Shown in pieces: positions 9,886 to 35,676 of a stretch of 46,099 nucleotides of DNA. Made by a program: the position numbers and the translations under genes. Source of the stretch: a virus; IMG/VR virus record IMGVR_UViG_3300017771_000020, positions 1-46,099 of that record; one strand, given 5' to 3'. Position 1 is the stretch's first letter, and every line of letters begins with the position of its first letter. A model generated the notes under the pieces. It was given only the letters and a program-made list of their open reading frames with translations. It did no database searches and had not been told where the DNA came from.

Positions 9886-10777
9886 TATACTAGATAACGT
9901 TTTTAAGAGTAAAAGCGTATCAGGTGGTGCTAATGAGATAGCTTATTGTTGTCCATTCTGCAATCATCATAAACCTAAGCTACAGATTAATGTAGAAACA
10001 CAACAGTGGCATTGCTGGGTTTGTGATGCTAAGGGTAAGTCAGTATTTAGCTTGGCTAAGAAACTAAAAGCAGCTAAGTCTATTTATCAAGAACTAGAGG
10101 CTATATACAAAAACTCTAAATTTAGTAAAAGCAAATATGTAAAAGATTCCTTTGTAAAGCTACCAGAGGAATATATTCCAATGGCATTCTTAAAAAGTGA
10201 CTCTCTCTCCTATGGACATGCTAAGAAGTACTTAAATAAAAGAGGAATAACAGAAGAAGACATTATCAAGTACAGCATAGGATATTGTGTAGACGGTGAC
10301 TATGGAGGAAGAATAATTGTTCCTTCATATGATTCAAATGGCAATTTAAACTATTTCGTAGCTAGATCTTTTTACAATTCACCTCTAAAGTACAAAAATC
10401 CACCAGCACCAAAAGATACTATAATATTTGACATGTATATAAATTGGAATATGCCTGTAATATTATGTGAAGGTGTTTTTGACGCGATGGCTATTAAAAA
10501 GAATGCAGTACCACTTTTAGGAAAGACAGTACAAGATACACTACTTAAAAATTTAATTAATAATACAAAAGAAGTTATAGTATGTCTAGATGCAGATGCA
10601 CAAGACACTATCTACAAGGTTACAGAAAAACTACTTAGAAATGGAGTTAAAGTTTCTAGAGTAAATTTAACGAAAGGCGATCCTTCAGACTTAGGGTTTA
10701 AAGTAATGAATTTTGCTTTAACAAAAGCAATACCGGTAAACGAATACGACTTAATAAGGCAAAAAATAAACATATGA
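9860..10777 (+). CDS. DNA primase (zinc finger plus TOPRIM; T4 gp61-like role)
   Basis: 305 residues. The N terminus carries a zinc-binding module, C31-P-F-C34 with C52-W-V-C55, which reads template DNA in primases. The TOPRIM catalytic core is clear: VILCEGVFDAMA with Glu204, then VIVCLDADAQD with Asp244 and Asp246, which bind the metals. This is the family that makes RNA primers for lagging-strand synthesis; in T4 the enzyme (gp61) works with helicase gp41, which is not in this window. It overlaps the upstream nuclease gene and shares an ATGA with the recombination gene downstream. Confidence 0.85.
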   Translation: MEIKNRLSSILDNVFKSKSVSGGANEIAYCCPFCNHHKPKLQINVETQQWHCWVCDAKGKSVFSLAKKLKAAKSIYQELEAIYKNSKFSKSKYVKDSFVKLPEEYIPMAFLKSDSLSYGHAKKYLNKRGITEEDIIKYSIGYCVDGDYGGRIIVPSYDSNGNLNYFVARSFYNSPLKYKNPPAPKDTIIFDMYINWNMPVILCEGVFDAMAIKKNAVPLLGKTVQDTLLKNLINNTKEVIVCLDADAQDTIYKVTEKLLRNGVKVSRVNLTKGDPSDLGFKVMNFALTKAIPVNEYDLIRQKINI

Positions 10778-17200: not shown

Positions 17201-20200
17201 TGCAGAGTCTGGAAGCATGACAATAACAGGAAGCGGTGGAATACATGCAAATCAGTTTATAATATCTTCATCTGGTGAAGCATTTTTTAAAGGTGAATTA
17301 GACAATACTGCAAAATTTGGTGGCGGTGCAGGTGGTGTTAGATTTAACGACTTCTTTGAAACAGAGACAGTTGAAGGAGTGCCAAGAATAGTACAAAAAC
17401 CTACAGCAGTTCTTAAAAGTGCTACAGGACAAATTTTATCTGCAAATGATTTAAGTGGTAGTTATGGTGAAGCTAATGTATCTGCATCATTTTCAATAAG
17501 TGCATCTGGAGTTTCAATAGAGCAGGCAGATATATCAACACAAAAAGCACAAATCTCTGGACAAAGTGCTCAATCATCAGCGACTTCTGCGACATCTGCT
17601 GAAGGATCTTCACAAACAGCAAACCAAAAAGCACAAGCAGCTAATACAAGTGCACAAAGTTCTGATTCTAGTGCACAGCTATCAAATCAAAAAGCGCAAA
17701 TCTCTGGACAAAGTGCACAATCTTCTGCAGGATCAGCACAATCATCTGCTGTATCAGCCACAGTAGCAGATGCTTCTGCCTCAGCTGCAAATACTGCTGC
17801 ACAAAGCTCTAATCAGAGTGCTCAATCTTCTGCAACAGGAGCTTCACAATCTCAAGCTGGTGCTACTTCAGCACAACAAGGCGCAGGAGTATCGCAACAA
17901 GGAGCACAATCAGCAGCTAGTTCTGCAACAACATCTGAGGCTTCTGCACAGGCTTCTACACAAGCAAAATCAGATGCTCAGAGCGCTAAGACACAGGCAC
18001 AAGTTGCTTCACAACAATCAAACCAATTTAGACAAGGAGCATTAGTTGCAAAAGAATCATCAGCAACTTCTAGTTTCGCAGCAAGAGACTCTGCTTCATT
18101 TTCAGAGACAAAAGCACAACAATCAAATCAGTTTGCACAGTCATCTGCTACATCAGCAACAACTTCTGAGGGGTCAGCTCAGAGTTCTAATTCAAGTGCA
18201 CAAACAGCAAATCAAAAAGCACAACAAGCAGCATCATCTGAAGGAGTAGCTTCTACTGGTGCACAACAAGCAGCAAGTTCTGCTACAACATCTGAGGCAT
18301 CAGCACAAAGTTCAAACCAAGCTGCTCAATCTTCTAATCAAAGTGCACAGGGCGCTAATACATCAGCTCAAAGCTCTAATCAAAGTGCTCAATCATCAGC
18401 AACTGGAGCTTCACAATCTCAAGCTGGTGCTACTTCATCACAGCAAGGAGCATCAACATCTCAACAAGGAGCAGGAGTATCACAACAAGGGGCGCAATCA
18501 GCAGCTAGTTCTGCAACAACATCTGAGGCATCAGCACAAAGTTCTGCAACTTCAGCAACTGTTGCAGATGCTTCGGCATCAGCAGCAAATACATCAGCTC
18601 AAAGTTCAAATACAAGTGCTCAATCATCAGCAACTGGAGCTTCTCAGTCTCAAGCAGGTGCCACATCAGCTCAGCAAGGAGCATCTGTTTCTCAACAGGG
18701 TGCACAATCTTCTGCAACATCTGCACAATCATCTGCTGTATCGGCAACTGTTGCAGATGCTTCGGCATCAGCAGCAAATACATCAGCTCAAAGTTCAAAT
18801 ACAAGTGCGCAAGGAGCAAACCAATCAGCACAAGGAGCAAATACATCTGCACAACAATCTCAGGCAGGAGCTGCATCAGCTCAGCAAGGAGCATCGGTTT
18901 CACAGCAAGGAGCTCAGTCTTCAGCAACATCTGCTACATCAGCAGAAGGATCAGCACAAAGCTCTAATCAAAGTGCTCAATCATCAGCAACTGGAGCTTC
19001 ACAATCTCAAGCAGGAGCTACTTCAGCACAGCAAGGAGCTCAATCTTCTGCAGGATCAGCTACATCAGCAGCAGGATCAGCAACAGAAGCAGATGCTTCG
19101 GCATCAGCAGCAAATACCTCAGCACAAAGTTCTAATCAGAGTGCTCAATCTTCTGCAACAGGAGCTTCACAATCTCAAGCTGGTGCAACATCATCACAAC
19201 AAGGAGCATCAACATCTCAGCAAGGTGCAGGAGTATCACAGCAAGGTGCACAATCATCAGCAGCTTCAGCAACTACATCTGAGGCATCAGCACAAAGTTC
19301 AAATCAGTCAGCTCAAGGTGCATCAGCATCTTCACAAGTTGCAAACCAGAAAGCTCAAGTTGCTAATCAGTCTGCACAATCATCAGCAGGATCTGCACAA
19401 TCTTCAGCAGCATCGGCAACAGTAGCAGATGCTTCGGCATCAGCTGCAGAAAGTTCTGCACAAAGTTCAAATCAAGCTGCACAAACATCACAATCTGGTG
19501 CATCAACAGCACAACAAGGTGCTTCAACTTCACAAGCTGGTGCATCAACAGCACAACAAGGTGCTTCAACTTCACAAGCTGGGGCTTCTACTTCACAGCA
19601 AGGTGCACAATCATCTGCAGCTTCAGCAACTACATCTGAGGCATCAGCACAAAGTTCAAATCAGTCAGCTCAAGGATCAAATTCATCTGCACAATCTTCT
19701 GCAGGATCTGCAACAACTGCAAATCAAAAAGCACAACAGGCAACTACATCAGCAACAGGTGCATCACAATCAGCACAATCTTCAGCAGCATCAGCAACTG
19801 TGGCGGACGCTTCAGCATCAGCTGCAGAAAGTTCTGCACAAAGTTCAAATCAAGCTGCACAAACATCACAATCTGGTGCATCAACTGCTCAGACAGGAGC
19901 TTCACAAGCTCAAGCTGGTGCTTCAACTGCACAACAAGGAGCTCAGTCAGCAGCAAGTTCAGCAACATCTGCTGAAGGATCTTCTCAAACAGCAAATCAA
20001 AAAGCTCAAGCTGCAAATTCATCAGCACAAAGTTCAAATTCAAGCGCACAATCTTCTGCAACAGGAGCTTCACAATCTCAAGCAGGAGCTACTTCAGCTC
20101 AGCAAGGTGCACAATCAGCACAAGCTGGAGCATCAACAGCACAGCAAGGAGCTTCAACATCTCAACAAGGAGCTTCAACTTCACAAGCTGGAGCATCAAC

Positions 20201-23200
20201 AGCACAGCAAGGAGCACAATCCGCTGCTAGTTCTGCGACAACATCTGAGGCATCAGCACAAAGTTCAAACCAAGCTGCACAATCATCTCAAGCAGGAGCA
20301 TCTTCATCTCAACAGGGTGCACAAAATTCAGCAGGATCTGCATCAGAATCTGCACAATCCGCGGCACAGTCTGCAACAAAAGCATCACAAGCTGCATTAC
20401 AAGCTCAAGGAGCAGCAGCATCTGCATCAGCAGCGGAAGATGCTGCGCAGCAAGCCGCAACAAAAGCTCAACAGGCATCAACAGCTGCACAGCAGGCATC
20501 TACAAAAGCATCTGATGCAGAAAGTTCTGCACAACAAGCAGCAGCCAAAGCACAAAATGCATCAAATTCTGCACAAACAGCAGCAATAGCAGCAACAGCT
20601 GCAGCAGCATCCGCATCACTAGCTTCTACATCATCTCAGCAAGCATCTACTGTTGCAACACAAGCATCACAAATTGCATCACAAGCAGCAGCATCAGCAA
20701 CCGCAGCGGCTCAAGAAGCAGCAGCTTCATTGGCATCTGCACAACAATCAGATGGGTCTGCTCAATCATCTAGTCAGAGTGCACAGGGCGCTAATCAATC
20801 AGCACAATCTTCTGCAGGATCTGCAACAACTGCAAATCAAAAAGCACAAGCAGCTAATGCAAGTGCTCAAAGTTCTGATTCTAGTGCACAAGGTGCAGCT
20901 GGATCAGCTACAACTGCTAATCAAAAAGCTCAACAAGCATCTAGCTCTGCTCAGACATCAGCAGTATCTGCAACCTCAGCAAATTTATCAGCAACAGAAG
21001 CAGACGCATCTGCATCAGTAGCAAATCAAAAAGCACAAATAGCCCAACAAGGCGCTTCAACATCTCAGTCAGGTGCAAGTACTGCACAATCAGGTGCTGC
21101 AACGGCACAGAGTGGAGCAACATCAGCACAACAAGGAGCAAGCTCTGCAAATACTTCTGCACAATCTTCTGCAGGATCGGCTACAACTGCTAATCAAAAA
21201 GCGCAAATTTCTAATCAAAGTGCACAATCATCAGCAACTTCTGCGACATCTGCTGAAGGATCTTCTCAAACAGCAAATCAAAAAGCACAGCAAGCTTCTG
21301 CATCATCAACAACTGCAAACCAAAAAGCACAGCAAGCTTCTAGTTCAGCTCAATCTTCTGCAGGCTCTGCTACATCAGCAGCAGGATCAGCAACAGAAGC
21401 AGATGCTTCGGCATCTCTAGCTAATCAAAAAGCACAAGTAGCTCAGCAAGGAGCAAGTACTGCTCAAAGTGGTGCTGCAACTGCACAGTCAGGAGCTACT
21501 ACTTCACAACAAGGTGCTGCATCTTCTCAGTCAGGAGCTCAATCAGCTGCTAGTTCTGCGACATCTGCTGAAGGATCTTCTCAAACAGCAAATCAAAAAG
21601 CTCAAGCTGCAAATTCATCAGCACAAGGAGCCGCAGGATCTGCAACAACTGCAAATCAAAAATCACAAGATGCAAATGCAAGTGCACAATCATCAGCAAC
21701 TGGAGCTTCTCAGGCTCAAGCTGGTGCTACATCGGCACAGCAAGGAGCAAGTACTGCACAGAGCGGAGCATCAACTGCTCAGACAGGAGCTTCACAAGCT
21801 CAAGCTGGCGCTACATCGGCACAGCAAGGAGCACAATCTTCTGCAGGATCTGCTACATCAGCAGCAGGATCAGCAACAGAAGCAGAAGCATCAGCTTCAT
21901 TGGCAAATCAAAAAGCTCAAGCTGCAAATGCATCAGCACAAGGAGCTGCAGGATCAGAAACAAATGCAAACACTTCAGCACAACAAGCTCAATCAGGAGC
22001 AAGTACTGCGCAGACAGGTGCTTCACAAGCTCAAGCAGGTGCTGCATCTGCTCAGACAGGCGCTTCACAAGCTCAAGCAGGAGCAAGCTCTGCACAACAA
22101 GGAGCTAATTCTTCAAATGCATCTGCACAGACTTCTGCAGTAGCAGCAACTTTTTCAGCAGCATCAGCATCAGTTTCAACAACAAGTGCACAATCTTCAG
22201 ATGGATCTGCACAAAATTCAGCAGCATCAGCTGCAGAATCTGCAGCGTCTGCAAATACTTCGGCACAAAGTGCAAGTCAGTCTGCAACCAAAGCATCTGA
22301 AGCAGCAGAAAGTGCACAAGCTTCAGCTAACTCAGCAAGTCAGTCTGCTGGTGTTGCTACATCAGCCGCACAAAGTGCAAGTCAATCTTCTAGTTCAGCA
22401 ACAGCTGCAGCAGCATCTGCAACGACATCTGCACAAGAAGCTAGTGATTCTGCTGGTTCAGCAGCGACAGCTGCAACTAAATCACAACAAGCAGCAACTG
22501 ATGCAACTACAGCTTCACAAAAAGCTTCACAAGCTTCAACAAATGCAACTGCAGCTTCACAATCTGCAAATACTTCTGCACAATCAGCAGCTGGATCAGC
22601 AACTAGTGCAAATCAATCAGCAACAAAAGCATCACAGGCTTCAACATCCGCAGCAGCATCTGCAGCATCAGCATCAGCAGCATCAACAAGTGCACAACAA
22701 GCATCAACAAAAGCACAACAAGCTGCAGTACAAGCTCAGAACGCTGAGGGAGAAGCAGAAAATGCAGCTCAAGAAGCAGCAGATTCTGCAACAAAAGCAC
22801 AACAAGCATCAGCATCTGCAACTGCAGCTTCACAATCTGCATCAAACTCTGCAACATCTGCAGCAAACTCTGCAACAACAGCACAACAAGCTGCAAGTAT
22901 AGCAACACAAGCAGCAGCATCTGCAACCGCAGCAGCTAATGAAGCAGCAGCATCATTGTCATCTGCACAGTCTTCGGATGGATCTGCTCAAAATGCAAAT
23001 TCAAGCGCACAAGGTGCAGCTCAAAAAGCAACCGATGCAACAAGTGCTGCTCAACAAGCATCGACAAAACAATCACAAGCTTCAACACTACAATCACAAA
23101 GCTCAACATTAAGATCACAAAGTTCTGCAATATCTTCTTCTACAAATTTAAGAGCTGATGGAATTCAAGCCATATTATCAGGATCATTAGGAGCTAGCAC

Positions 23201-25685
23201 TTCAGTAGTGACACTACCTAATGTTATTGCAACAGGATCCGGTACAATAGCAGGATGGACTATAGATTCCGATGCAATATTTGTAGGTACAAAAGACACA
23301 AGCGGTTTTACAAGTGGCAACGGTCACATGACTATATCGTCTACAGGTGCAATACACGCTCCAAAATTTTATATAGATAGTTCTGGTAATGTAGAATTAG
23401 AAGGAACCGTTACTGCAACTGCTGGTGCAATTGGCGGATTTACAATTGCAAATAGTGATATTACTGGTAGTGGCGGTAAGTTAGTTACCAGCAATAGGTC
23501 AACTAACAACTTCGGAACAGGTACAACTTATAATACAACAAAAAGAGTAGAGCTTCTTCCAAGCAATATACAGATTCGTACTTATGTAGGTCATCCGCTT
23601 TCAACAAACGGAATTGATCAGTCAAGAATAATTTTTGATGCTGCTTCTACAGCATCATTTAACTTTTCTAATGGAGAGACTAATACTAAAATTAACACTG
23701 CCAAATTAAGACTAGAAAATATAGAAATTGGAAAATATGATACTAGTGACAATTTCACCGGCAAAAGCTTGTATATAGGAGTCGGTGGTGGTAGTGTAGG
23801 CTCAATTAGAAACAATATCAATGATGCATCTTCTGCATATGCAATCATAAAGCCAGACAATACCAATGCAGGTTGGATTGTAGGACAGAAATTATCTGTA
23901 GGAACTGTTGTTGCATTTACATCTACTGTTTATCAGTCAGGTTATAGATTTAGTGTTAATGGCTCATCTTATTTTAGTGACTATCTTGTTGCATTAGGTG
24001 GTATTCATGTTGGTGGAACAGGAGATCCTGGAACTGATAATCTATTTGTTGATGGTTTCACATACTCACTTGGTGGTCTTCACGTCGGAGGAACATCAAA
24101 TCCAGGAACTGATAACTTAGCTGTTGATGGTTACACATACTCACTTGGTGGTCTTAATGTTGGTGGAACATCAGATCCAGGTGATGATTGCTTACGAGTG
24201 ACTGGTCACGCGACTTTTGGAAAAGATACAACAGACAGTAATACTGTTACGGTTTATGTATCCAGTAATGCAGGAGATCAAGGTATACAGTTTTTAAGAG
24301 ATGATTCTTCTACAACTTCTGGTGAAGGTATGGGTGCAATAGGTTTTGATACTATTGATGGAGGAGCACCAACAGATATTTTTAAATCATCTGCATTAAT
24401 ATCAGGTCATGCATCAGAGACTATGGGTACGGGTGATAAGGGTGGCCAAATAAGATTTTACACAAAACCAACTGATGCAGATGCTTCCACCAGTGCAACT
24501 TTAAGGGGTAAATTTAATGCTTCAGGACAGCTTATATTGGAAAGCGATCTTTCAATTGTTCAAGCTAAAAAGTTTTATCTTGATGATGTTAGCAATACGT
24601 ATATCCACTCTCCAGGCTCTGATCATATAGACTTTGTAGCAGGTGGAGCAACATATCTAGCAATAGACCAAGACAATTCAAATACTGTTATTAGAGCAGA
24701 TCTTTTTCTTGCAGGAAGTTCAACAACAATAGATTCCGGAGCGTATGGCTCAAATTACATAAGGCTTTTTAATAACAACGGTCACAGCTATATGGATTTC
24801 TTCGGTGGAGACATGTATTTTAGAGAAAATGGTAGTGCAGTAGGATTAATGATTGAAGATTCTACAGCTTATGTTGGCATTGGACATTCAGATCCAAATG
24901 CTCCACTAGATGTTAGAAAGAATCAATCAAATGACGCATATATAGGTATTTTTAGAAATTCAAGTTCATCTGATTCTGGAAACTCATACATACTAAACTT
25001 ATGGCATTCTCAAGAAGATTCAACAAACCAATTCGATACAGGTGAGCACTGGATTCAATTTTCAGATAATAGCGGAACATTCTTAGGAGAAATTACTAGT
25101 CGAGTGACTTATACCACATTTACAGGAGGTCACGTGTCACAAATTATAAGTGGTTCAGCTGCAGACAATGAAAATGAGATGAAAGCTTGGAAGCCTGGTA
25201 TGATCGTAAAAGCAACAGGAAACTTAAATGTAACTGGAAGCACTTTAGATTTAGCTTGGCCGGAAGTTACTGTTACAACAACTCAAAAAGACAAAGCTGT
25301 AATGGGTGTCTATAGTGATATAAAGCCGGGTAGTGGTTCAAATTGGGTGGGCCCATGGAATAACAAAAGCGCAGTAAGCAGTTCTACAGGAGACTGGGGT
25401 ACAGGACATAATATGCATGGTTTAGATCCTGTAAAACCAGCATTGGACTATAATGCGGTTGGTGAAGGAATGATGTTGGTTACAGATACTAATGGAAATA
25501 TAGAAACAGGCGATTATATCTGTTCATCTACAAGAACTGGTCACGGTGAAAAGCAAGACGATGACTTACTACACAATTACACAGTAGCAAAAGCTACACA
25601 GCCTTATAACTTTGCATCTGCTAGTAATGATGCAGACTTAGGCTATAAATCAGTATTAATTGCATGTACTTATCATTGTGGGTAA
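14226..25685 (+). CDS. giant tail fibre with Ala/Ser/Gln heptad-repeat stalk (3819 aa)
   Basis: The N-terminal part (1 to about 1100) is beta-rich and probably attaches to the virion. Residues about 385-570 look like a jelly-roll carbohydrate-binding module, followed by repeated GW-type modules (IGGWQI near 775, ADWNIG near 861, GGWHVD near 973). Residues about 1108-2974 are heptads such as AQSSNQS, AQSSATG and ATSAQQG, with Ala at position 1 and Ser/Ala at position 4, as in an alanine-rich coiled coil; lambda Stf has a comparable Ala/Ser-rich stalk. GW-type modules resume (AGWTID near 3008), then three 25-residue units (HVGGT...PGTDNL...VDG) and a tip ending YKSVLIACTYHCG. No ribosome site is visible. 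Most likely a long side or tail fibre. Confidence 0.75.
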   Translation: MSKIQKTAFLQNLQDIDVFENEEGITSKYFNITDIPLELPMGKSSMLIMGSKFLKNDIVLKLELVDSLGNAVYLEPVFDYEESGGVRVGIEIYKGTAAGSATLTILGELDPTTYEGVIPPEAQGIYNVKYTRPLTINKTIANDRPIRFYKKPEVSVTEIIKGQVALTSTSTGSNVQNVGYIEGFPVPNTEGNQFTIDGDNFGEVQSYNDQVYGFSPIGNYESYDASDPRYTFKIGEADFSSSMVGGTLTITQPNALTPFQTSSNTVIPSYSSRITKVINKKTIEVQKPFGVYDSGSGFYRIAGIGSGSYQINWPKEHEYDTSSINFKSFADVRLKKLRTFSGDINRVAAYIKNNGPFSNWEKVVDTPVESPELLLDPTSMTGTSRIGVFSSDSVINTYWTATGGQFGTEESATVQTFSDNEYLSDSVFVSASAASMLDNDSNEWIKLQLKQNYSMSFIENTEYRIKAKLFCDNTNGLQNSVKAVFHMSGSAFGMSPSLSDANYGRAIAKVQFDNIADKTEQQDLEATFVPDSSGNAILQVRFTGGHWHMSQVSIKPNSDTNFSPEFIRLIAPVPPLQTRPDSLDFAFEFYDINNNKAKTVLTTIPDNPNGVEFAGENMNILGDDNMIGGSVFVGGDAIGAGIQFGGVNSTLPETGESAAEGSGFIRSVKYQGFTSASLSTDNTGFMIYSGSVLPDSGDNYSGVGLELVGESGSLRFGTKPSRFEVIADAFFVGSKNTQFISGSGGIIEISSSAFHLSSSGDVIISGSVTAVEGNIGGWQIVDNKLSGSNATLDALGSALYKSDEGPTTNPNDGYYIDFTPSDSNQYFVRFGSNFAVSSSGVLVASGAIIEGQLTASTGKIADWNIGSNTISKATNNKFTGLSSAGDTRFFAGATSLTNSGSAPFNIKSDGSITASNYRFDGDGLITGSVTVGESVTILGAISANTINTPAAGPFKATINSQGFARFVSASIGGWHVDSDSIFTGDKVTDAGYAESGSMTITGSGGIHANQFIISSSGEAFFKGELDNTAKFGGGAGGVRFNDFFETETVEGVPRIVQKPTAVLKSATGQILSANDLSGSYGEANVSASFSISASGVSIEQADISTQKAQISGQSAQSSATSATSAEGSSQTANQKAQAANTSAQSSDSSAQLSNQKAQISGQSAQSSAGSAQSSAVSATVADASASAANTAAQSSNQSAQSSATGASQSQAGATSAQQGAGVSQQGAQSAASSATTSEASAQASTQAKSDAQSAKTQAQVASQQSNQFRQGALVAKESSATSSFAARDSASFSETKAQQSNQFAQSSATSATTSEGSAQSSNSSAQTANQKAQQAASSEGVASTGAQQAASSATTSEASAQSSNQAAQSSNQSAQGANTSAQSSNQSAQSSATGASQSQAGATSSQQGASTSQQGAGVSQQGAQSAASSATTSEASAQSSATSATVADASASAANTSAQSSNTSAQSSATGASQSQAGATSAQQGASVSQQGAQSSATSAQSSAVSATVADASASAANTSAQSSNTSAQGANQSAQGANTSAQQSQAGAASAQQGASVSQQGAQSSATSATSAEGSAQSSNQSAQSSATGASQSQAGATSAQQGAQSSAGSATSAAGSATEADASASAANTSAQSSNQSAQSSATGASQSQAGATSSQQGASTSQQGAGVSQQGAQSSAASATTSEASAQSSNQSAQGASASSQVANQKAQVANQSAQSSAGSAQSSAASATVADASASAAESSAQSSNQAAQTSQSGASTAQQGASTSQAGASTAQQGASTSQAGASTSQQGAQSSAASATTSEASAQSSNQSAQGSNSSAQSSAGSATTANQKAQQATTSATGASQSAQSSAASATVADASASAAESSAQSSNQAAQTSQSGASTAQTGASQAQAGASTAQQGAQSAASSATSAEGSSQTANQKAQAANSSAQSSNSSAQSSATGASQSQAGATSAQQGAQSAQAGASTAQQGASTSQQGASTSQAGASTAQQGAQSAASSATTSEASAQSSNQAAQSSQAGASSSQQGAQNSAGSASESAQSAAQSATKASQAALQAQGAAASASAAEDAAQQAATKAQQASTAAQQASTKASDAESSAQQAAAKAQNASNSAQTAAIAATAAAASASLASTSSQQASTVATQASQIASQAAASATAAAQEAAASLASAQQSDGSAQSSSQSAQGANQSAQSSAGSATTANQKAQAANASAQSSDSSAQGAAGSATTANQKAQQASSSAQTSAVSATSANLSATEADASASVANQKAQIAQQGASTSQSGASTAQSGAATAQSGATSAQQGASSANTSAQSSAGSATTANQKAQISNQSAQSSATSATSAEGSSQTANQKAQQASASSTTANQKAQQASSSAQSSAGSATSAAGSATEADASASLANQKAQVAQQGASTAQSGAATAQSGATTSQQGAASSQSGAQSAASSATSAEGSSQTANQKAQAANSSAQGAAGSATTANQKSQDANASAQSSATGASQAQAGATSAQQGASTAQSGASTAQTGASQAQAGATSAQQGAQSSAGSATSAAGSATEAEASASLANQKAQAANASAQGAAGSETNANTSAQQAQSGASTAQTGASQAQAGAASAQTGASQAQAGASSAQQGANSSNASAQTSAVAATFSAASASVSTTSAQSSDGSAQNSAASAAESAASANTSAQSASQSATKASEAAESAQASANSASQSAGVATSAAQSASQSSSSATAAAASATTSAQEASDSAGSAATAATKSQQAATDATTASQKASQASTNATAASQSANTSAQSAAGSATSANQSATKASQASTSAAASAASASAASTSAQQASTKAQQAAVQAQNAEGEAENAAQEAADSATKAQQASASATAASQSASNSATSAANSATTAQQAASIATQAAASATAAANEAAASLSSAQSSDGSAQNANSSAQGAAQKATDATSAAQQASTKQSQASTLQSQSSTLRSQSSAISSSTNLRADGIQAILSGSLGASTSVVTLPNVIATGSGTIAGWTIDSDAIFVGTKDTSGFTSGNGHMTISSTGAIHAPKFYIDSSGNVELEGTVTATAGAIGGFTIANSDITGSGGKLVTSNRSTNNFGTGTTYNTTKRVELLPSNIQIRTYVGHPLSTNGIDQSRIIFDAASTASFNFSNGETNTKINTAKLRLENIEIGKYDTSDNFTGKSLYIGVGGGSVGSIRNNINDASSAYAIIKPDNTNAGWIVGQKLSVGTVVAFTSTVYQSGYRFSVNGSSYFSDYLVALGGIHVGGTGDPGTDNLFVDGFTYSLGGLHVGGTSNPGTDNLAVDGYTYSLGGLNVGGTSDPGDDCLRVTGHATFGKDTTDSNTVTVYVSSNAGDQGIQFLRDDSSTTSGEGMGAIGFDTIDGGAPTDIFKSSALISGHASETMGTGDKGGQIRFYTKPTDADASTSATLRGKFNASGQLILESDLSIVQAKKFYLDDVSNTYIHSPGSDHIDFVAGGATYLAIDQDNSNTVIRADLFLAGSSTTIDSGAYGSNYIRLFNNNGHSYMDFFGGDMYFRENGSAVGLMIEDSTAYVGIGHSDPNAPLDVRKNQSNDAYIGIFRNSSSSDSGNSYILNLWHSQEDSTNQFDTGEHWIQFSDNSGTFLGEITSRVTYTTFTGGHVSQIISGSAADNENEMKAWKPGMIVKATGNLNVTGSTLDLAWPEVTVTTTQKDKAVMGVYSDIKPGSGSNWVGPWNNKSAVSSSTGDWGTGHNMHGLDPVKPALDYNAVGEGMMLVTDTNGNIETGDYICSSTRTGHGEKQDDDLLHNYTVAKATQPYNFASASNDADLGYKSVLIACTYHCG
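18555..18807 (+). repeat. exact long direct repeat spaced by 189 bases within the heptad array
   Basis: A block of about 65 bases starting GCAACTGTTGCAGATGCTTC begins at 18555 and again at 18744 with identical sequence over its length. The offset of 189 bases equals nine 21-base units, a higher-order repeat of 63 residues. Such exact copies indicate recent duplication or gene conversion. Confidence 0.8.
19495..19578 (+). repeat. perfect 42-base tandem duplication within the heptad array
   Basis: A 42-base unit beginning CTGGTGCATCAACAGCACAA occurs twice back to back (19495-19536 and 19537-19578) without a difference, encoding the same two heptads (ASTAQQG ASTSQAG) twice. A third, partly matching unit follows. 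This is the clearest sign of recent slippage or unequal recombination. Confidence 0.85.
23997..24200 (+). repeat. three 75-base repeats in the distal fibre domain
   Basis: Units start at 23997, 24072 and 24147 (exact 75-base spacing) and encode GGxHVGGTxxPGTDNLxVDG-like 25-residue modules; the third is shortened and changes to PGDDCLRV. They lie just beyond the heptad stalk and probably form a beta-structured shaft or tip segment. Confidence 0.75.
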
Positions 25686-26825: not shown

Positions 26826-29423
26826 ATGTCAGACTACATTAAGAGGCTCGTTAATGAAGCAGTATACGGTGTAGACTGTTTAGTTTTAGATAGCACAACT
26901 ATACAAGAGTTCTTAGAGTGGAGAGAAAATCTTCATGAAGTAAGTAATGTACAGAGCGTGTATTCAGACGAAGGTTTATATGACTTTTTTATTGGGTTTA
27001 AAGACTACGAAAGAATATCAAAAGACGATGCTGCTAAAGTTATGGGCTGGCCAGTTGTAAATTACATCATAGATAACAAAGCAGATGATCCATTTTATCA
27101 GATGGATATGTTAGATGATGATGAGCTTCTAGGAAGATCAAATACTGTATCTTATGGTGGCACAATTGCTACAGGTGATAGCTCTTTAAAGACAGGTGAC
27201 TATAAGTGGATGAAGCAGATGGAGGGACTTATTGATACTTTAGGCTGGGAAGTCATCGATTGGATTGGGTGTGGTGTTGATAGAAAGAGTCAGGTAGTAG
27301 TCATCCCAACTAAAGATCAAAAAGTAAACGAAGCCATAAAAATATCAGTAAGAGAAACAATAAAAAAAGTTGACAACAAGTATATTGTTTACCCTGAAAA
27401 GGGTGGAAAAAGATTAGGAACACATAGCACAAAAAAGAAAGCAATGGCACAGCTAACTGCCATAGAACTTTCTAAGAAGGGTATAAAAAAAGAATCAGAT
27501 GAATACACATTTGGTCCTGACTGGATACCCACTAGTTTGTCTCAAAGAAAAAAGATGAAACGCATACACAGAAAACTAAATAGAAGTATACGAGAACAAG
27601 AAAATAATATTAAAAAAATTGTTGCTGTTTATCCTGGAAGGTTTCAACCATTTGGTCCACATCATAAAGAAACATATGACTTCTTAAAAAAGAGATTTGA
27701 TGAAGTTTATATTGCAACAAGTAATAAACAAGGAGGCAACAGACATCCTATGAGCTTTGCACAAAAGCGAAAACATATGATAAAGATGGGAATTCCTTCA
27801 AAATCTATAGTACAAGAAAAACAGCCATATATACCTAAGGGCTTACTATCAAAGTATGATTCTGAATCAACTGCTGTGGTCTTCGCAGTTGGTGCGAAGG
27901 ATGAGGGCAGACTCTCAAGTGGCAAGTACTTTAAGAAATATAGAAAAAACTATATGAGGCTAAAAGGTTACGAAGAAAACGGTTATACTTTACAGGCGCC
28001 ACATGTATCAGTAAAGGTTGGGGGACAAGAAATAAGTGGTACAACAATGAGAAAGCTTTTAGGATCAGAAAAATATGATCTAAAATTAAAAAAGAAATTT
28101 TTTAAGAAAATGTTTGGTTACTTTGATCAAAAAACATTTGATCTTTTTGTCACGTCATTTAAAGAATCAGTAATTAAGTCACTTATAAAAGAAGGCGGCG
28201 CTTATGGACACATGGCACATCCTTTTGATGATTACGCTTTGACTTTTGGAGAATTAAAAGATATAATAGACTTAGGACTACAAGGCAGTTTAGATAAAGA
28301 AGAAGCAGTAACTGAAAAATTAGATGGTCAAAATATTATGATTTCAGCAATAAACGGAAAAGCTGTTGCTGCTAGAAATAAGGGCGACTTAAAAAGAGGC
28401 GGAATGAGCTTAAAAGGTGTACAGGCAAAGTTTGCTAATCATATTCCTAGTGTTAGAGATGCATTTGTATTTTCAATGAGAGATATTGCAAATGCTGTAG
28501 AAAAAATGTCAAAGAAAGATCAAGTAGCACTGTTTAATAATGGTATGAACTGGGCAAATATAGAAATTATTTATCCAGAAAATTTAAATGTAATAGACTA
28601 TGATGGTCCTGCAACAATAGTTTTTCACGGTATCTTAAAATATAGTGATGCATGGGTTCCTTCTGGTGAGGTAAGATCAGGAGGAAAGAGAATAGCAGAC
28701 ATTATTAATAAAGTCAATAAAGGAATAAAGACTAAGTTCGCATTTAAAGGACCAAATGTAATAAAACTACATAAACCAAAGAACTATGGAAGGCTAAGGA
28801 AAAAATATATCGGATCTTTGAACAAGTTGCAGAATATATATAGACTAAAGGATAGTGATACCTTATCGTTATATCATCAACACTTTTGGTTAGAATATAT
28901 TTTAAATGGCGCAAATTCTTCTGACTATAAAAATTTACCAGACAATGTTTTATATCCTCTTATGAAAAGATGGGCATTCTCTGATAAAAGTTACAAAATG
29001 ACTGAAATTAATAAATTAAAAGAAGACTATCCTAAGTTTGTTGACTGGGTAAGATCAACAGAAAAAATAGATCATGCAAAAATGCTTAAAGATAATATGA
29101 AACCATTCGAAGAAATATTCTTTGGAGTTGGTGCTGAAATATTAGCAAACGCCAGTAATTATCTTAGTGCAAATCCAGAAAAAACAGCAAAGAAACTAAG
29201 AGATGATCTAGATAAAGCATCAAAAGCTTTGTTAGCTAAGAAAGATTTTTCTAATATTGACAAGCTAAAAGCACAACTTAAAAAACTAAAAGCAATGCCA
29301 GCACTAAAAAAAGCTGCACCGTCAGAAGGACTAGTGTTCAAGTATAACGGCAAAGTTTATAAATTTACAGGATTCTTTGCACCAATTAATCAAATTCTAG
29401 GTTTAGAAAAATTCTCGAGGTAG
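26826..29423 (+). CDS. dual nucleotidyltransferase: HIGH-type domain fused to ligase-like KxDG domain
   Basis: 865 residues. An N-terminal leader-like start (MSDYIKRLVNE-A) is followed by an unassigned acidic region and a small DUF2188-like unit (KYIVYPEKGGKRLGTHSTKK, about 188-207). Residues about 265-430 form an NMNAT/cytidylyltransferase-like domain: VYPGRFQPFGPHH, the HxGH-type nucleotide site with His279 and His280, and ISGTTMR (403-409), the second signature. Residues about 460-860 resemble the covalent nucleotidyltransferase (RNA/DNA ligase) fold: EKLDG with Lys498 as the expected adenylated Lys, WANIEIIYPEN as possible motif III, EGLVFK (834-839) as motif IV and VYKFTG as motif V. It may act in NAD or RNA-end metabolism; the substrate is unknown. 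Confidence 0.7.
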   Translation: MSDYIKRLVNEAVYGVDCLVLDSTTIQEFLEWRENLHEVSNVQSVYSDEGLYDFFIGFKDYERISKDDAAKVMGWPVVNYIIDNKADDPFYQMDMLDDDELLGRSNTVSYGGTIATGDSSLKTGDYKWMKQMEGLIDTLGWEVIDWIGCGVDRKSQVVVIPTKDQKVNEAIKISVRETIKKVDNKYIVYPEKGGKRLGTHSTKKKAMAQLTAIELSKKGIKKESDEYTFGPDWIPTSLSQRKKMKRIHRKLNRSIREQENNIKKIVAVYPGRFQPFGPHHKETYDFLKKRFDEVYIATSNKQGGNRHPMSFAQKRKHMIKMGIPSKSIVQEKQPYIPKGLLSKYDSESTAVVFAVGAKDEGRLSSGKYFKKYRKNYMRLKGYEENGYTLQAPHVSVKVGGQEISGTTMRKLLGSEKYDLKLKKKFFKKMFGYFDQKTFDLFVTSFKESVIKSLIKEGGAYGHMAHPFDDYALTFGELKDIIDLGLQGSLDKEEAVTEKLDGQNIMISAINGKAVAARNKGDLKRGGMSLKGVQAKFANHIPSVRDAFVFSMRDIANAVEKMSKKDQVALFNNGMNWANIEIIYPENLNVIDYDGPATIVFHGILKYSDAWVPSGEVRSGGKRIADIINKVNKGIKTKFAFKGPNVIKLHKPKNYGRLRKKYIGSLNKLQNIYRLKDSDTLSLYHQHFWLEYILNGANSSDYKNLPDNVLYPLMKRWAFSDKSYKMTEINKLKEDYPKFVDWVRSTEKIDHAKMLKDNMKPFEEIFFGVGAEILANASNYLSANPEKTAKKLRDDLDKASKALLAKKDFSNIDKLKAQLKKLKAMPALKKAAPSEGLVFKYNGKVYKFTGFFAPINQILGLEKFSR

Positions 29424-29425
29424 TT

Positions 29426-29965
29426 ATGAATAGTGAAGATAGAGCATTAAAAAATATTTTACGAGGAAGACCGGTTGAAAAACCTATTATGGTCGGATAC
29501 GAAGGAAAAAAGCAGAAGTCTGGAGATCAAAAGAGCAGATTAACAGATATAATGGCTGCTGCTAGAATGCCGTGGTTCTGTCCTAGCTGTAAAAAAATAA
29601 TGAAAAAGAAGCTTGATAATAAAATGTGGAATTTATTTAATCATTGTTTTGAGTGTCAAATTGAAAAAGAACACGAAATGAGAACAAGAGGTGTTTTTAA
29701 GCAGTGGGAAGCAAAAAAAGTCTTAGTTAATAAAAGAAGTATTATAGAAAATCAGATAAAAGAAATACAAGAATTTATTAACATAGGTGATACAGAAATT
29801 GTAGAACCTGTCAATGTAGATACAGGATTTGTTCACGTTGAAAAATATGAATTAGATAGCAAAATAAAGAAAGAAGCAGAAGAAGCATTAGTATCATTAG
29901 ATGCTGCGCTTACAAATGTCAACAAGACAATCAAGAAATTAGATGAAGAACTCGAAGAAAATTAG
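29426..29965 (+). CDS. zinc-ribbon coiled-coil protein beside the terminase
   Basis: 179 residues. WFCPSCKKIM and HCFECQIE (C52-x-x-C55, C74-x-x-C77) form a zinc ribbon. The rest is charged and helical, with probable coiled coil at about 95-120 and 145-179. The gene overlaps the large terminase by 23 bases, the usual place for a small terminase subunit, yet it does not look like T4 gp16. It may be a functional substitute that recognises DNA for packaging, or a transcription-linked zinc protein; the sequence does not decide. Confidence 0.6.
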   Translation: MNSEDRALKNILRGRPVEKPIMVGYEGKKQKSGDQKSRLTDIMAAARMPWFCPSCKKIMKKKLDNKMWNLFNHCFECQIEKEHEMRTRGVFKQWEAKKVLVNKRSIIENQIKEIQEFINIGDTEIVEPVNVDTGFVHVEKYELDSKIKKEAEEALVSLDAALTNVNKTIKKLDEELEEN

Positions 29966-31514
29966 AGACGGAATAAAACAAGAGTATGTAAAATGTGCTC
30001 TTGATCCAATATACTTCATGAAGGAGTACTGTTATATTCAGCATCCTGTCAAAGGAAAAATGAAATTTAACTTGTATCCATTTCAAGAAAAGACATTAGG
30101 GGCTTTAAAAGACCACGATTATAATATTATCTTAAAAGCGAGACAGCTAGGTATATCTACATTAAGTGCTGGCTACTCTCTATGGTTAATGAATTTTCAT
30201 TTAGACAAAAACATATTAGTAATTGCTACAAAACAAGAAGTTGCAAAAAATCTTGTAACTAAAGTAAGAGTAATGCACAAAGAATTACCTAATTGGTTAA
30301 AACAGGGTTGTGTAGAAGACAACAAATTATCTTTAAGATATAAGAACGGATCACAAATAAAGGCAATATCATCAACAGGTGAAGCAGGTAGATCTGAAGC
30401 ACTGTCTCTACTAATAATTGATGAGGCTGCATTTATTAAGAATATTGATGAGATATGGGGTGCAGCTCAACAAACATTAGCAACAGGTGGTAAGTGCATT
30501 GCATTGTCAACACCTAACGGAATGGGAAACTGGTTTCACAAGACATGGTCTTCTGCAGAAACAGGTGAAAATAATTTTAACTTTATTAGGCTACACTGGA
30601 CAGTACATCCTAATAGAGGGCAGCAGTGGAGAGATGATCAAAATGCGCTATTAGGACCAGACATGGCAGCACAAGAATGTGACTGTGACTTCATAAGCTC
30701 TGGACAAACTGTAATACCTGGCCCTATCTTAAAAGAGTATCAAGACAATTTTGTAACAAAATATACAGAAGATAGATACGGTGGAAATATGTGGATATGG
30801 AAACATCCAGAGCCTAGTAAAAAATATTTAATGTCTGCTGATGTTGCTCGTGGTGATGGAGCAGACTATTCTGCATTCCACATACTAGATTTAGAAACAC
30901 TAGAGCAGGTTGCAGAATATAAAGGAAAAGAAGATACTACAAGATATGCAAGTATATTAATGTCTGTAGCCACAGAATATAATGATGCCTTACTGGTTGT
31001 TGAAAATAACAATGTAGGTTGGGCAGTTTTACAGTCACTTATAGATAGAGACTATAAAAATTTATTTTGGATGAAAAAAGATTTAAAGTATGTTGACGCA
31101 AATAAGCAACATACAAACAAATATAGAAATGAAAACAAGTATATGGTGCCGGGATTTACAACAAGTATGAAAAGCAGGCCTCTAATAATTGAAAAGCTGG
31201 CACAATTTATTAGAGAGAAGTCAATTAAAATTAACTCAATAAGATTGGTAGAGGAATTATTTGTTTTTATATTTAATAATGGGAAAGCGGAAGCTCTTAA
31301 AGGATACAACGATGATTTGGTTATGAGTATGGCAATAGGACTTTGGATAAGAGAAACCGCACTAAAACTACATGCAGAAAATATTGCTCTACAAAGAGAA
31401 GCAATAAAAGGCGTAGATGCAAATTCAGGTGTCTATACCGTAGAGGAAGAAGAAGACTACGGTTGGAAGCAACATGTAGGAGACAAAAAAGAATCACTAA
31501 CTTGGTTAATATAA
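29943..31514 (+). CDS. 17: large terminase, packaging ATPase-nuclease (gp17-like)
   Basis: 523 residues with both gp17 domains. The ATPase has the Walker A-type KARQLGIST (65-73), Walker B LLIIDEAAF with Asp160 and Glu161, and the coupling motif CIALSTPNG. The nuclease has SADVARGDGADYS with Asp300, LLVVENNNVG, and NDDLVMSMAIGLW near the C terminus, supplying the acidic metal ligands of the RNase H fold. It pumps DNA into the prohead through the portal and cuts the concatemer. It is followed one base later by the portal gene; sheath and tube genes, which separate 17 and 20 in T4, are not between them. Confidence 0.93.
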   Translation: MKNSKKIRDGIKQEYVKCALDPIYFMKEYCYIQHPVKGKMKFNLYPFQEKTLGALKDHDYNIILKARQLGISTLSAGYSLWLMNFHLDKNILVIATKQEVAKNLVTKVRVMHKELPNWLKQGCVEDNKLSLRYKNGSQIKAISSTGEAGRSEALSLLIIDEAAFIKNIDEIWGAAQQTLATGGKCIALSTPNGMGNWFHKTWSSAETGENNFNFIRLHWTVHPNRGQQWRDDQNALLGPDMAAQECDCDFISSGQTVIPGPILKEYQDNFVTKYTEDRYGGNMWIWKHPEPSKKYLMSADVARGDGADYSAFHILDLETLEQVAEYKGKEDTTRYASILMSVATEYNDALLVVENNNVGWAVLQSLIDRDYKNLFWMKKDLKYVDANKQHTNKYRNENKYMVPGFTTSMKSRPLIIEKLAQFIREKSIKINSIRLVEELFVFIFNNGKAEALKGYNDDLVMSMAIGLWIRETALKLHAENIALQREAIKGVDANSGVYTVEEEEDYGWKQHVGDKKESLTWLI

Positions 31515-31515
31515 T

Positions 31516-33312
31516 ATGGCAAAACAAGATACATTTTACGATAGAATACAACGCTTATTTTCATCAAATGTTATAGTAAGAAACATAGGTGGAAAAAAGC
31601 TAAGAGTTATAGACACTGATGAAATTCAGGCTGGCTCTAAATCTTTAATGGATAGATACCAGAGGATGTTTTCAACACAAGGATCTGGTGGCTACATGCA
31701 ATTTGCAGGTGAGCTAGCAAAATCACAAAGACTGGCATTATTTAGAGACTATGAAGCAATGGATGATGATTCTATAATATCATCAGCATTAGACGTATAC
31801 GCAGATGAATCAACAATGAAATCTGAGTATGGCAATGTTTTAGAAATACAGTCTAATAACTCACAGATACACGAAATATTACATAACTTATTTTATGATA
31901 TTCTTAATATAGAGTTTAATTTATGGCCGTGGATAAGAAATCTTGTAAAGTATGGTGACTTTTTCTTACATTTAGAAATAAAAGAAAAATATGGAATTAT
32001 TAATGTTGCGCCATTTTCACCTTATGATATGGCAAGGATAGAAGGATATGATCCTGAAAACCCACACGCCGTAAAATTTGTAATGGATGCATCAGACCCA
32101 TCAGGTGGCGGCGGAAGAAAATCCAGAACAGAATTTGAAAATTTTGAAATAGCACACTTTAGAATGTTATCAGATTCGAACTATATACCTTACGGAAAGT
32201 CTATGATCGAAGGGGGTAGAAAAGTTTGGAAACAATTAAGTCTTATGGAAGATGCTATGTTGATTCATAGAATTATGAGAGCACCAGAAAAAAGAATTTT
32301 TAAGATTGATATTGGTAACTTACCACCAAGTGAAGTAGACAGCTACATGAAGCGTATTATGGACAAGATGAAAAAAGCTCCTGTTGTAGACGAACAAACA
32401 GGTCAGTATAATTTAAAGTATAATATGCAAAACATTACTGAAGACTTTTATCTACCAGTTCGTGGTGGTGATAGCGGAACTCAAATTGAATCACTACCTG
32501 GCTTGACTTATGAAGCTGTTGAAGATATTGAGTACTTAAGAAATAGAATGCTAGCTGCATTAAAAATACCAAAAGCTTTCTTAGGATATGAAGAAGGAAT
32601 AGGGTCAAAAGCAACACTTGCTGCAGAAGATGTTCGTTTTGCAAGAACAATAGAAAGAGTCCAGAGAATAGTTATCAGTGAGCTAACTAAAATAGCAGTA
32701 GCTCATTTATATTCTCAGGGATATACAGATGCCGCATTAGTTGATTTTGATTTGAACCTAACAAATCCTTCTACAATATATGAGCAAGAAAGACTAGAAC
32801 TATGGGAAAAGAAAAATACTATTGCCAGAGATATGAAAGCAGAAGCACTAGTATCTAAGCAATGGATATATGATAATGTATTTAACTTTACTGCAGAGGA
32901 TATTTCAAAAATACAAAAAGAAGTAATTGAAGATAAGAAGCAAGAATTTAGACTTTCAACAATAGAAAATGAAGGATCTGATCCTGCAAACCCACCACAG
33001 ACAGACCAAATGGATAGTTCTCCTAGAAAAAAAGAGAAGAAAAAAGAAGATGAGAAAAGAGTATCTAGCAGAGACGTTGAAGACAGAGAAACTTATGGTG
33101 TAAGAGATGTGTTGGGTAAGTATGATTATGCTCATTCAACAAAAAAAGACAATACACCTAGCATAGGCCATAATCATAGAAAAAGCCCACTAGCGTTAGC
33201 ACACTTTGACAGAATCAAAAAAGATTTTGAAAACAAAGAGAAGAAAATGCTTAATGAGGTAGAAAAAATTGAAGATAAGCTGGAGAATAAAAATAATGGC
33301 AAAAACAAATAA
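31516..33312 (+). CDS. 20: portal protein (gp20-like)
   Basis: 598 residues, close to T4 gp20 in size. The N-terminal and central regions show portal features: SALDVYADESTMKSEYGNVL, FNLWPWIRNLVKYGDFFLHL, and APFSPYDMARIEGYDPEN, followed by MIHRIMRAPEKRIFKIDIGN and a stem/clip region with PVRGGDSGTQIESLPG. The C terminus is acidic and Lys-rich, possibly disordered (about 495-598). Twelve copies form the DNA channel at one head vertex, dock the terminase and start prohead assembly. Placement between terminase and protease genes agrees. Confidence 0.93.
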   Translation: MAKQDTFYDRIQRLFSSNVIVRNIGGKKLRVIDTDEIQAGSKSLMDRYQRMFSTQGSGGYMQFAGELAKSQRLALFRDYEAMDDDSIISSALDVYADESTMKSEYGNVLEIQSNNSQIHEILHNLFYDILNIEFNLWPWIRNLVKYGDFFLHLEIKEKYGIINVAPFSPYDMARIEGYDPENPHAVKFVMDASDPSGGGGRKSRTEFENFEIAHFRMLSDSNYIPYGKSMIEGGRKVWKQLSLMEDAMLIHRIMRAPEKRIFKIDIGNLPPSEVDSYMKRIMDKMKKAPVVDEQTGQYNLKYNMQNITEDFYLPVRGGDSGTQIESLPGLTYEAVEDIEYLRNRMLAALKIPKAFLGYEEGIGSKATLAAEDVRFARTIERVQRIVISELTKIAVAHLYSQGYTDAALVDFDLNLTNPSTIYEQERLELWEKKNTIARDMKAEALVSKQWIYDNVFNFTAEDISKIQKEVIEDKKQEFRLSTIENEGSDPANPPQTDQMDSSPRKKEKKKEDEKRVSSRDVEDRETYGVRDVLGKYDYAHSTKKDNTPSIGHNHRKSPLALAHFDRIKKDFENKEKKMLNEVEKIEDKLENKNNGKNK

Positions 33313-34190: not shown

Positions 34191-34605
34191 GCTAAGAGAG
34201 TTTATAAGAGAGCTTATTAAAAAAGAACTAGCAGAAGCCAGTGTTACAGGTGGAATTGATGGAGGTGCAGGACAGCCAAAAACACCTTACGCATTTAAAA
34301 ATCCAAAAGATGACGATAAAGATGAAGACGAATTAAAATTATCAGATGGTATGTCAATTGTAAAAGAAAATTACTACGCATGGAGAAATGATGACTCTAT
34401 GTCAACAAAGCAAAAATTAGCAAAGTCTATGACAGAAATAAGAGATGGTATAACAATGCTAGAAAGAGCAGTAAAATATAATGTTAAACTTAAAAACGAA
34501 ATGAGATTTGAGTCTGATAGCTATATGAAACGAACAAAAAACGCTCTTGGTAAAATATCAGAAAAACTTTTAAGACTTTCAGCAAGAGTAAAGGACATGG
34601 TATAA
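34177..34605 (+). CDS. putative prohead core or internal protein (position of T4 gp67/68)
   Basis: 142 residues. The N terminus MQLDKLREFIRELIKKEL followed by AEAS is an amphipathic helix with two possible gp21 sites, FIRE-L (residue 12) and LAE-A (residue 20), the second an especially good match to the T4 rule. A Gly/Asp-rich linker follows, then a helical C-terminal region (TKQKLAKSMTEIRDGITMLE). It lies just before the protease gene, where T4 has the small core proteins 67 and 68, so a core role is likely, though sequence similarity to those is not evident. Confidence 0.55.
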   Translation: MQLDKLREFIRELIKKELAEASVTGGIDGGAGQPKTPYAFKNPKDDDKDEDELKLSDGMSIVKENYYAWRNDDSMSTKQKLAKSMTEIRDGITMLERAVKYNVKLKNEMRFESDSYMKRTKNALGKISEKLLRLSARVKDMV

Positions 34606-35192
34606 TGGAAAAACAATTATTAGTCAACACAATTCCTTTTGATATATCAAGAGAGAAGATTCAAGAGTCTATAAATACTAATGGCAAGCTTGTTGTGAAG
34701 GGTGTATTACAAAGAGCAGAAGCTAAAAATCAAAATGGTAGAGTTTACCCAAGAGAAATACTCGTAAGAGAGGCTAAAAAATACACATCTGAGTTTATAA
34801 AAGAACGAAGAGCTATGGGTGAATTAGATCATCCAGACTCATCAGTAGTTAATTTACAAAATGTATCACATAATGTATTAGAAATGCATTGGTCAGGAAA
34901 TGATTTAGTAGGAACTGTTGAAGTCTTATCCACACCAGCAGGAAACATTTTAAAAGAATTATTTAAAGGCGGAATCAAATTAGGTATAAGCTCTAGAGGC
35001 TTAGGATCAATAAAACAAGAATCTGCAGGTGATGAAGTACAAGGCGACTTTGAATTAATAGCATTCGATTTCGTATCAAACCCTTCAACACACGGCGCTT
35101 TTCTAAGTCCAGTTAATGAATCAGTTCAAAAAGTTGATCGTAAGTGGACAAAAGTAGAGACATCAATAAGAAATATTTTAACAGGAAAATAA
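34605..35192 (+). CDS. 21: prohead core protease (gp21-like)
   Basis: 195 residues. Motifs of the T4 gp21 (peptidase S77) family are visible: LVVKGVLQRAEAKNQNGRVY, RRAMGELDHPDSS with catalytic His76, and GGIKLGISSRGLGSI with the nucleophile Ser (129 or 130). The C-terminal part (IAFDFVSNPSTHGA) is also typical. The enzyme sits in the prohead core, removes leaders from the capsid protein and internal proteins after [LI]xE, and degrades the scaffold, making room for DNA. This makes it the expected processor of the leader-bearing proteins in this window. Confidence 0.9.
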   Translation: MEKQLLVNTIPFDISREKIQESINTNGKLVVKGVLQRAEAKNQNGRVYPREILVREAKKYTSEFIKERRAMGELDHPDSSVVNLQNVSHNVLEMHWSGNDLVGTVEVLSTPAGNILKELFKGGIKLGISSRGLGSIKQESAGDEVQGDFELIAFDFVSNPSTHGAFLSPVNESVQKVDRKWTKVETSIRNILTGK

Positions 35193-35193
35193 T

Positions 35194-35676
35194 ATGAAGC
35201 TAAAAGACATTATAAAAGAAGAACTAGGTGGATTCGTAGGTTTATCACCAATTCATAAGTTAGAAAGCAAAGTTGTTGAACAAGACAATGCTTCCCTTCT
35301 TAAAATTGCCAAAGAGTTAGTAGCAAAAGAACAAGACGATAAGCTTATGAATAGAGAAGATCTTATAAGTAGTGTCAATGAGTTTTCTTCATATGGTCCG
35401 TCAATATACAAAAAGCATAATCTTGCTGAAGTAGCTAAAAAGTTTAGTGAAATCGCAGCAGCAGCACAAAAACATGTTGTTTCTGAAACAGAAGATTGGT
35501 TTGATAGAGTTACAGTTCAGAGAAATATGACTGATCTTAAAAAACAGGCAGGCCAATTTAATAAAATTGCTAATGAAGCACAAGCAATGCAAGACAGGAT
35601 GGCAGCTTTATATGAAGATATGGGCGGAATATTAAATCGTTATTTTGAAATTAAAGAGATACAAAAAGAGGACTAA
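35194..35676 (+). CDS. putative head core/cargo protein with LKDIIKE leader
   Basis: 160 residues beginning MKLKDIIKE-E, closely related to the MIKLKDLLKE leader of genes 4-28 kb away, with IKE ending at residue 9. The body is an extended helical protein (AAAAQKHVVSETEDWF and FNKIANEAQAMQDRMAALYE), suggesting a coiled-coil core component. It lies between protease and ribosomal S21 genes in the head cassette, which strengthens the reading of this leader type as a capsid-targeting tag. Family not recognised. Confidence 0.6.
   Translation: MKLKDIIKEELGGFVGLSPIHKLESKVVEQDNASLLKIAKELVAKEQDDKLMNREDLISSVNEFSSYGPSIYKKHNLAEVAKKFSEIAAAAQKHVVSETEDWFDRVTVQRNMTDLKKQAGQFNKIANEAQAMQDRMAALYEDMGGILNRYFEIKEIQKED

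Follow-up and report, generated by a model that had tools for sequence, protein, structure and literature searches.

The DNA analysed here, a 46-kb stretch (46,099 nucleotides) of the IMG/VR record IMGVR_UViG_3300017771_000020 from a marine virus of bacteria (hereafter the window), encodes at positions 26826-29423 a protein of 865 amino acids (aa) that very probably unites two distinct nucleotidyltransferase (NTase) folds on one polypeptide. The open reading frame (ORF) lies on the plus strand, as do its parts and the head and leader-bearing genes described below; it starts with ATG, is free of internal stops and is backed by homologs. We lean towards reading its product as a capsid-targeted, probably protease-processed multi-enzyme precursor that delivers NAD- and RNA-repair enzymes. 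The protein belongs to a large mosaic family, whose members differ through shuffling, splitting and addition of modules at protease-motif junctions. Because the window also holds genes for a gp23-type capsid protein, an S77 prohead protease, a portal protein and a terminase, its source is a T4-superfamily myovirus; by terminase and capsid it is closest, among cultured phages, to Microcystis phage Mel-JY01 and Flavobacterium phage immuto (~50% identity). An original prediction, made from the letters of the DNA, had given the coordinates and length of the ORF, its motif positions and the presence of two different NTase folds; coordinates and motifs were confirmed, and Pfam, conserved motifs and two confident AlphaFold models bear out the two folds. 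A search of the PDB with the single sequence returned no matches.

The first fold spans aa 256-447 (27591-28166). Pfam CTP_transf_like matches aa 268-357 at E 2.5e-5, above the curated cutoff, and the AlphaFold model of this half (pLDDT 89.4, pTM 0.84; NTase and ligase models were built on 50 and 55 sequences, respectively) has the alpha/beta fold of the HIGH superfamily. In a Foldseek search of the PDB its best match was Francisella NadM (2r5w, E 2.6e-6), followed by PPAT and NadD folds, and a profile search of PDB sequences recovered the archaeal NMNAT MJ0541 at 6e-6. The structural comparison originally proposed for both halves thus yielded NMNAT/PPAT folds here and, as described below, RNA/DNA ligase folds in the other half. 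The HIGH-superfamily site that had been predicted stood in part: the C-terminal signature of the SxTxxR type reads ISGTTMR (aa 403-409, 28032-28052), with GTxxR in 112 of 114 relatives, but the HxGH (or TxGH) signature reads GPHH (aa 277-280, 27654-27665), its first residue being Gly. Because the first His of HxGH is replaced, NTase activity is uncertain, and the domain is not filed as an NMNAT member; by fold and most motifs it appears to resemble the NMNAT type. With bifunctional NadM-type NMN adenylyltransferase/Nudix enzymes it shares the NTase fold and the GRFQP and SGTxxR motifs, and a few family relatives likewise carry Nudix. It differs from them in having GxHH for HxGH and a ligase where NadM has Nudix.

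The second fold spans aa 457-865 (28194-29420). Pfam RNA_ligase matches aa 494-525 weakly (E 0.0075, below the cutoff). The AlphaFold model of this half reached pLDDT 89 and pTM 0.84, and its top 20 Foldseek matches in the PDB are nearly all RNA/DNA ligases (E at least 0.016), the best being archaeal RNA ligases, T4 Rnl1, Rnl2 and DNA ligases. Against a viral structure library, phage proteins named cytidyltransferase came first (1e-35), then RM378 RNA ligase and T4 RnlA. Hhalign comparisons were weak against T4 Rnl1 and Rnl2 alone and gave P = 0.011 against 26 Rnl1 sequences, a value of supporting weight only. Motif residues of both domains are conserved over 25-55 relatives. Motif I (KxDG) reads EKLDGQN, with K and DG invariant in the alignments and Lys498 (28317-28319) as the predicted nucleotidyl-acceptor; equally invariant are the motif III Glu (NIEIIYP...NVIDY) and EG of motif IV (EGLVFK, aa 834-839, 29325-29342), where 83 of 102 relatives have K at the position of Lys839, and motif V reads KVYKFTG. 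Motifs I, Ia and III of T4 RNA ligase 1 (RnlA) are in register with the window protein (EKLDGQN; NIEIIYPENLNVIDY versus NFEFVAPTNRIVLAY). In Rnl1, a helical domain comes after motif V. In the AlphaFold model of the window protein, however, a long helical region sits between motifs III and IV and one helix only follows motif V, which sets it apart from both RnlA and the RM378 enzyme; the second motif V Lys is also absent, and the statistics are marginal. Since it departs from the Rnl1 domain layout, this half is not filed as an Rnl1 member, and by fold and most motifs it may best be described as an Rnl1-like ligase-type domain.

Relatives of the window protein are numerous. A first IMG/VR scan found 45 loci, and at least 500 IMG/VR relatives were confirmed by the ligase profile and at least 556 by the NTase profile; among named records, relatives came from Mel-JY01 and two uncultured jumbo phage genomes only. 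Both domains occur together in 111 distinct ORFs of the fetched loci, 637-2463 aa long. Their order is NTase-ligase, ligase-NTase (~60 additional IMG/VR ORFs, as well as genome contigs L232 and L233) or split between neighbouring genes, the last in loci L130 and L131, whose ligase genes have a leader-like start of their own (MKTLSEDLIKRFLKE-S and MYKLTDDKIEQFLVE-S), and inserts between NTase and ligase range from 0 to ~1000 aa. A further domain of the window protein, ND (aa 39-168, 26940-27329), was found by hidden Markov model (HMM) search in nearly all relatives; it precedes the NTase in the window, whereas other clades have it between NTase and ligase. It is followed in the window by a linker (aa 169-179, 27330-27362) and two small basic modules, one PHROG 3684-like (aa 180-222, 27363-27491), the other reading TFGPDW...RSIRE (aa 223-255, 27492-27590) and present in 21 family ORFs. 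Such small, mostly basic modules are gained and lost among relatives. Added domains comprise a P-loop kinase (9 ORFs), HD (8), CCA-enzyme (4), Nudix (3) and a zinc-protease-like domain (1). The fullest repair set seen among relatives is a 2463-aa chain (L143 2896-10284) of P-loop kinase, CCA-enzyme head and RNA-binding domains, HD, NTase, ND and ligase. One ligase-NTase fusion (L233 7998-10406) lies on a contig of 2.8 Mb from a metagenome-assembled genome of candidate division WOR-3 and may represent a prophage, a misassembly or a cellular copy.

Among cultured phages, the Mel-JY01 'cytidylyltransferase like protein' (WWT39297.1, PP395634) has NTase and ligase in the order of the window, with 37% identity over 69% of the query, and its gene lies 2.5 kb upstream of the terminase. 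It differs in lacking an ND domain before the NTase and the basic modules, and its motif IV is EGIVFN; the annotation leaves its ligase part unnamed. Flavobacterium phage immuto, though near by terminase and capsid, yielded no ligase homolog, and the ligase profile found nothing in the genomes of S-PM2, S-SCSM1, immuto or T4. Immuto gene 183 (L234 7132-9855), at a comparable position in the head operon, encodes another multi-enzyme protein without ligase: in its 907 aa, read by eye and with the NTase HMM, are a Pol-beta-like NTase, an HxGH NTase and two HExxH metallopeptidase-like regions.

The borders between modules are enriched in motifs of the prohead-protease type. T4 gp21 cleaves at L/I-X-E (PMC9026906), and an S77 (gp21-type) prohead protease, the presumed processing enzyme, is encoded in the same phage and operon (34605-35192; Pfam Peptidase_S77, E 2.3e-28). 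Within 20 aa upstream of the domains, [ILV]xE occurs in 66 of 84 distinct sequence windows for the NTase and in 81 of 105 for the ligase, compared with 12% of windows inside domains. After removal of redundancy the motif was present before the NTase in 33 of 42 linkers (shuffled linkers, 20 +/- 3), before the ligase in 45 of 57 (32 +/- 3.4) and in 36 of 48 leaders (20 +/- 3), counts that come from related sequences and are not independent trials. In the window protein itself, 7 of 10 [ILV]xE motifs fall into the leader and linkers (68 of 865 residues; hypergeometric P 1.4e-6, for linkers chosen after the domains had been seen). The putative sites are LHE38^V at the end of the leader (aa 1-38, 26826-26939), VNE169^A and VRE177^T in the linker behind the ND domain, IRE257^Q just past the second basic module, and IKE456^GG at the end of the linker before the ligase (aa 448-456, 28167-28193). 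The leader thus ends in L/I-x-E, as in gp21-processed proteins, and in 17 of 17 relatives from the window's clade [LI]xE stands at this place, before YSDEGL (shuffled mean 5.1, maximum 11). The original prediction had likened the leader to those of cargo proteins, proposing delivery with the genome and cleavage at NE11-A. Virion cargo is likely in view of the cyanophage data below; cleavage at Glu11 as the main site was rejected, as close relatives have E, Q, D or S at this position.

Both domains are maintained, since dN/dS, considered only where dS is unsaturated, takes values of 0.03-0.08 for the NTase and 0.05-0.15 for the ligase domain, indicating purifying selection (~0.03-0.15 overall). 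Their co-occurrence, fused in two orders and as neighbours, indicates that their functions are linked. The product could be one uncut bifunctional enzyme, the NTase and ligase sharing a substrate such as NAD- or nucleotide-capped RNA ends in the virion or the infected cell; selection on both domains and their presence together in more than 100 distinct proteins would fit. However, permuted order, splitting and long inserts are ill-suited to one shared active assembly, and the linkers carry protease motifs, so that we regard this explanation as unlikely. The shuffling, splitting and addition of modules at such junctions argue instead for separable cargo modules. Net charges run from +4 to +21 across the basic modules, NTase and ligase; together with the altered HxGH, the non-universal motif IV Lys and the wide size range, this would also suit a mainly structural or core protein, whose enzyme-derived, largely inactive modules and basic peptides fill the prohead core and condense DNA. 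Yet exceptions to the motif I Lys, the Glu of motif III, the EG of motif IV and SGTxxR hardly occur, dN/dS is lowest in the two enzyme domains, and the added modules are recognisable enzymes; a mainly structural role is therefore very improbable.

The link to the virion comes from cyanophage homologs. Mass spectrometry of virions has revealed NMNAT-like or cytidylyltransferase proteins in S-SCSM1, S-SZBM1 and S-CREM2, a finding for which S-CBWM1 is also cited (PMC9602691, PMC9146016, PMC10665884). The virion protein S-SCSM1_91 (PMC9602691) is matched by the family NTase HMM at E 2.8e-6 and has a capsid-targeting leader of the T4 type, MKSFLQFLKE-A, which resembles the start of T4 IPII and IPIII, MKTYQEFIAE-A; NTase homologs in S-SM2, P-SSM2, P-TIM68, S-SRM01 and S-T4 start MKSF/MKNF...E-A/T. 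These proteins form the 'cytitidyltransferase'/NMNAT cluster T4-GC 190 (S-SCSM1_91, S-SM2_161, P-SSM2_194, S-PM2p139), which belongs to the same NTase superfamily (S-PM2, HMM E 8e-10) and has leaders ending in LxE, but differs in that its genes are not ahead of the terminase and the S-SCSM1 protein has no ligase domain. In S-PM2 (L325 3025-4804), a short ligase-like ORF, p138 (KVTTKWDGAPAV), ends just before the cytidyltransferase p139. The deposited record may hold a frame break between the two, and the 591-aa UniProt entry A0A0M6VVW4, found by fold, may be p138 and p139 read as one.

The location of the gene agrees with a role in the head. As originally predicted, the ORF lies just upstream of the packaging genes, ending 0.5 kb before the terminase large subunit (29943-31514), which is followed by the portal protein (31516-33312), and the family gene precedes the terminase in 145 of 151 family loci. 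Alternatively, the product might be an unpackaged, cytosolic, late-expressed auxiliary metabolic protein for the synthesis of NAD or CDP-compounds. Annotations of cyanophage homologs indeed place them among auxiliary metabolic genes, as cytidylyltransferase or NMNAT (PMC9146016), and the S-CREM2 authors allow for carry-over into purified virions (PMC10665884). Against this stand the fixed place in the head and packaging operon, the leaders with a prohead-protease motif, independent detection in several cyanophage virions and a ligase domain without a role in such pathways, and we consider it distinctly unlikely.

Several observations nevertheless weigh against the preferred reading of a packaged and processed precursor of repair enzymes. 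GxHH is found in 95 of 106 relatives and HxGH in 11, which makes NMNAT catalysis doubtful. Foldseek matches of the ligase half never reach E 0.001, its profile gave chance matches only and no ligase among PDB sequences, and the motif IV Lys is replaced by M, I, V, Q or N in 19 of 102 relatives. LxE is a short motif in linkers rich in it, its excess over shuffled linkers being clear but modest, and many relatives read ELLLMGG, without Glu, before the ligase. The window leader lacks the T4 CTS sequence MKTYQEFIAE. The S-CREM2 proteome authors note that CsCl-purified virions could contain such proteins as contaminants (PMC10665884), the virion-proven cyanophage NTases are encoded away from the terminase, and S-SCSM1_90, a virion-protein neighbour of S-SCSM1_91 considered as a ligase partner, proved to be no ligase.

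If the precursor reading is correct, the N-terminal leader would direct the 865-aa protein into the prohead core, where the S77 protease would cut at [LI]xE-type sites (Glu38, 169/177, 257 and 456) and leave the ND domain, small basic peptides, the NMNAT-like NTase and the Rnl1-like ligase in the head. We give cleavage between the modules an even chance. The products would then enter the host along with the DNA; the NTase might use ATP and a mononucleotide to replenish NAD or a similar dinucleotide, and the ligase might reseal host-cleaved RNA (tRNA) in the first minutes of infection, ahead of phage gene expression. The P-loop kinase, CCA-adding enzyme, HD and Nudix domains of relatives may represent further steps of RNA or NAD repair. 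The enzymes would make good the losses of RNA and NAD inflicted by host defence; both RNA repair and NAD synthesis are known themes of phage counter-defence (PMC7824862), and a combined role of this kind is plausible, if somewhat short of probable. More tentatively still, many uncultured marine T4-superfamily phages may carry a true polyprotein, with RNA/NAD repair enzymes (kinase, CCA enzyme, HD, Nudix, NMNAT-like NTase and ligase) made as one capsid-targeted chain, cut in the prohead by the maturation protease, injected as a counter-defence kit and swapped as modules at the cut sites. If true, this would explain the recurrence in cyanophage virions of NMNAT-like proteins that have no clear role there; it also suggests that repair of RNA could start ahead of any phage gene expression. 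Its predictions, namely neo-N-termini after LxE, a leader able to carry foreign proteins and a function of ligase Lys498, are testable on cultured phages.

Elsewhere in the window, three ORFs begin with leaders ending in E: MKLKDIIKE^E (35194-35676), MIKLKDLLKE^S (7098-7394) and MIKLKDLLFE^Q (1937-2335). The gp23-type major capsid protein (37012-38616) has a candidate site, IDE^A, ahead of the gp23 core. A DUF5824 protein (2759-3679) matches with its C-terminal aa 231-294 the tail of PHROG 3041 ('cytidyltransferase'), and its basic module is apparently common to another NTase family; next to it, a short CWxGY...PNCV module (3679-4134) was found again in 14 further ORFs from related loci, and inspection by eye showed it in S-PM2 p142 as well. 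A 1054-aa ORF (10774-13938) with Metallophos (aa 12-196) and SMC_N/AAA (aa 382-599) domains resembles a fusion of T4 gp47 and gp46 (Mre11/Rad50) into a single polypeptide. A 3819-aa ORF (14226-25685) lies upstream of an endolysin, and its C-terminal part has homologs in a few related loci.

Among known systems, giant phages SPN3US and phiKZ have many head proteins that are cut after Glu by the prohead protease and then ejected (PMC5694885, PMC10052503). In these phages, however, the protease removes propeptides and cleaves itself as well; neither source describes a precursor that is cut into several enzymes. The T4 internal head proteins IPII and IPIII and the enzyme Alt resemble the window protein in a leader that ends at a gp21-type L/I-x-E site and in the S77 protease, and Alt, which is delivered with the DNA, resembles the proposed cargo in this respect as well. 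They differ in consisting of a single module behind one leader, whereas the window protein chains several enzymes by motif-bearing linkers, and its leader of ~38 aa is unlike theirs in sequence. Injection of single enzymes, such as Alt, is known from T4, and that of RNA polymerase subunits from giant phages; one leader that loads a whole chain of repair enzymes, cut by the maturation protease, would, if true, extend the injected cargo of phages to a modular kind.

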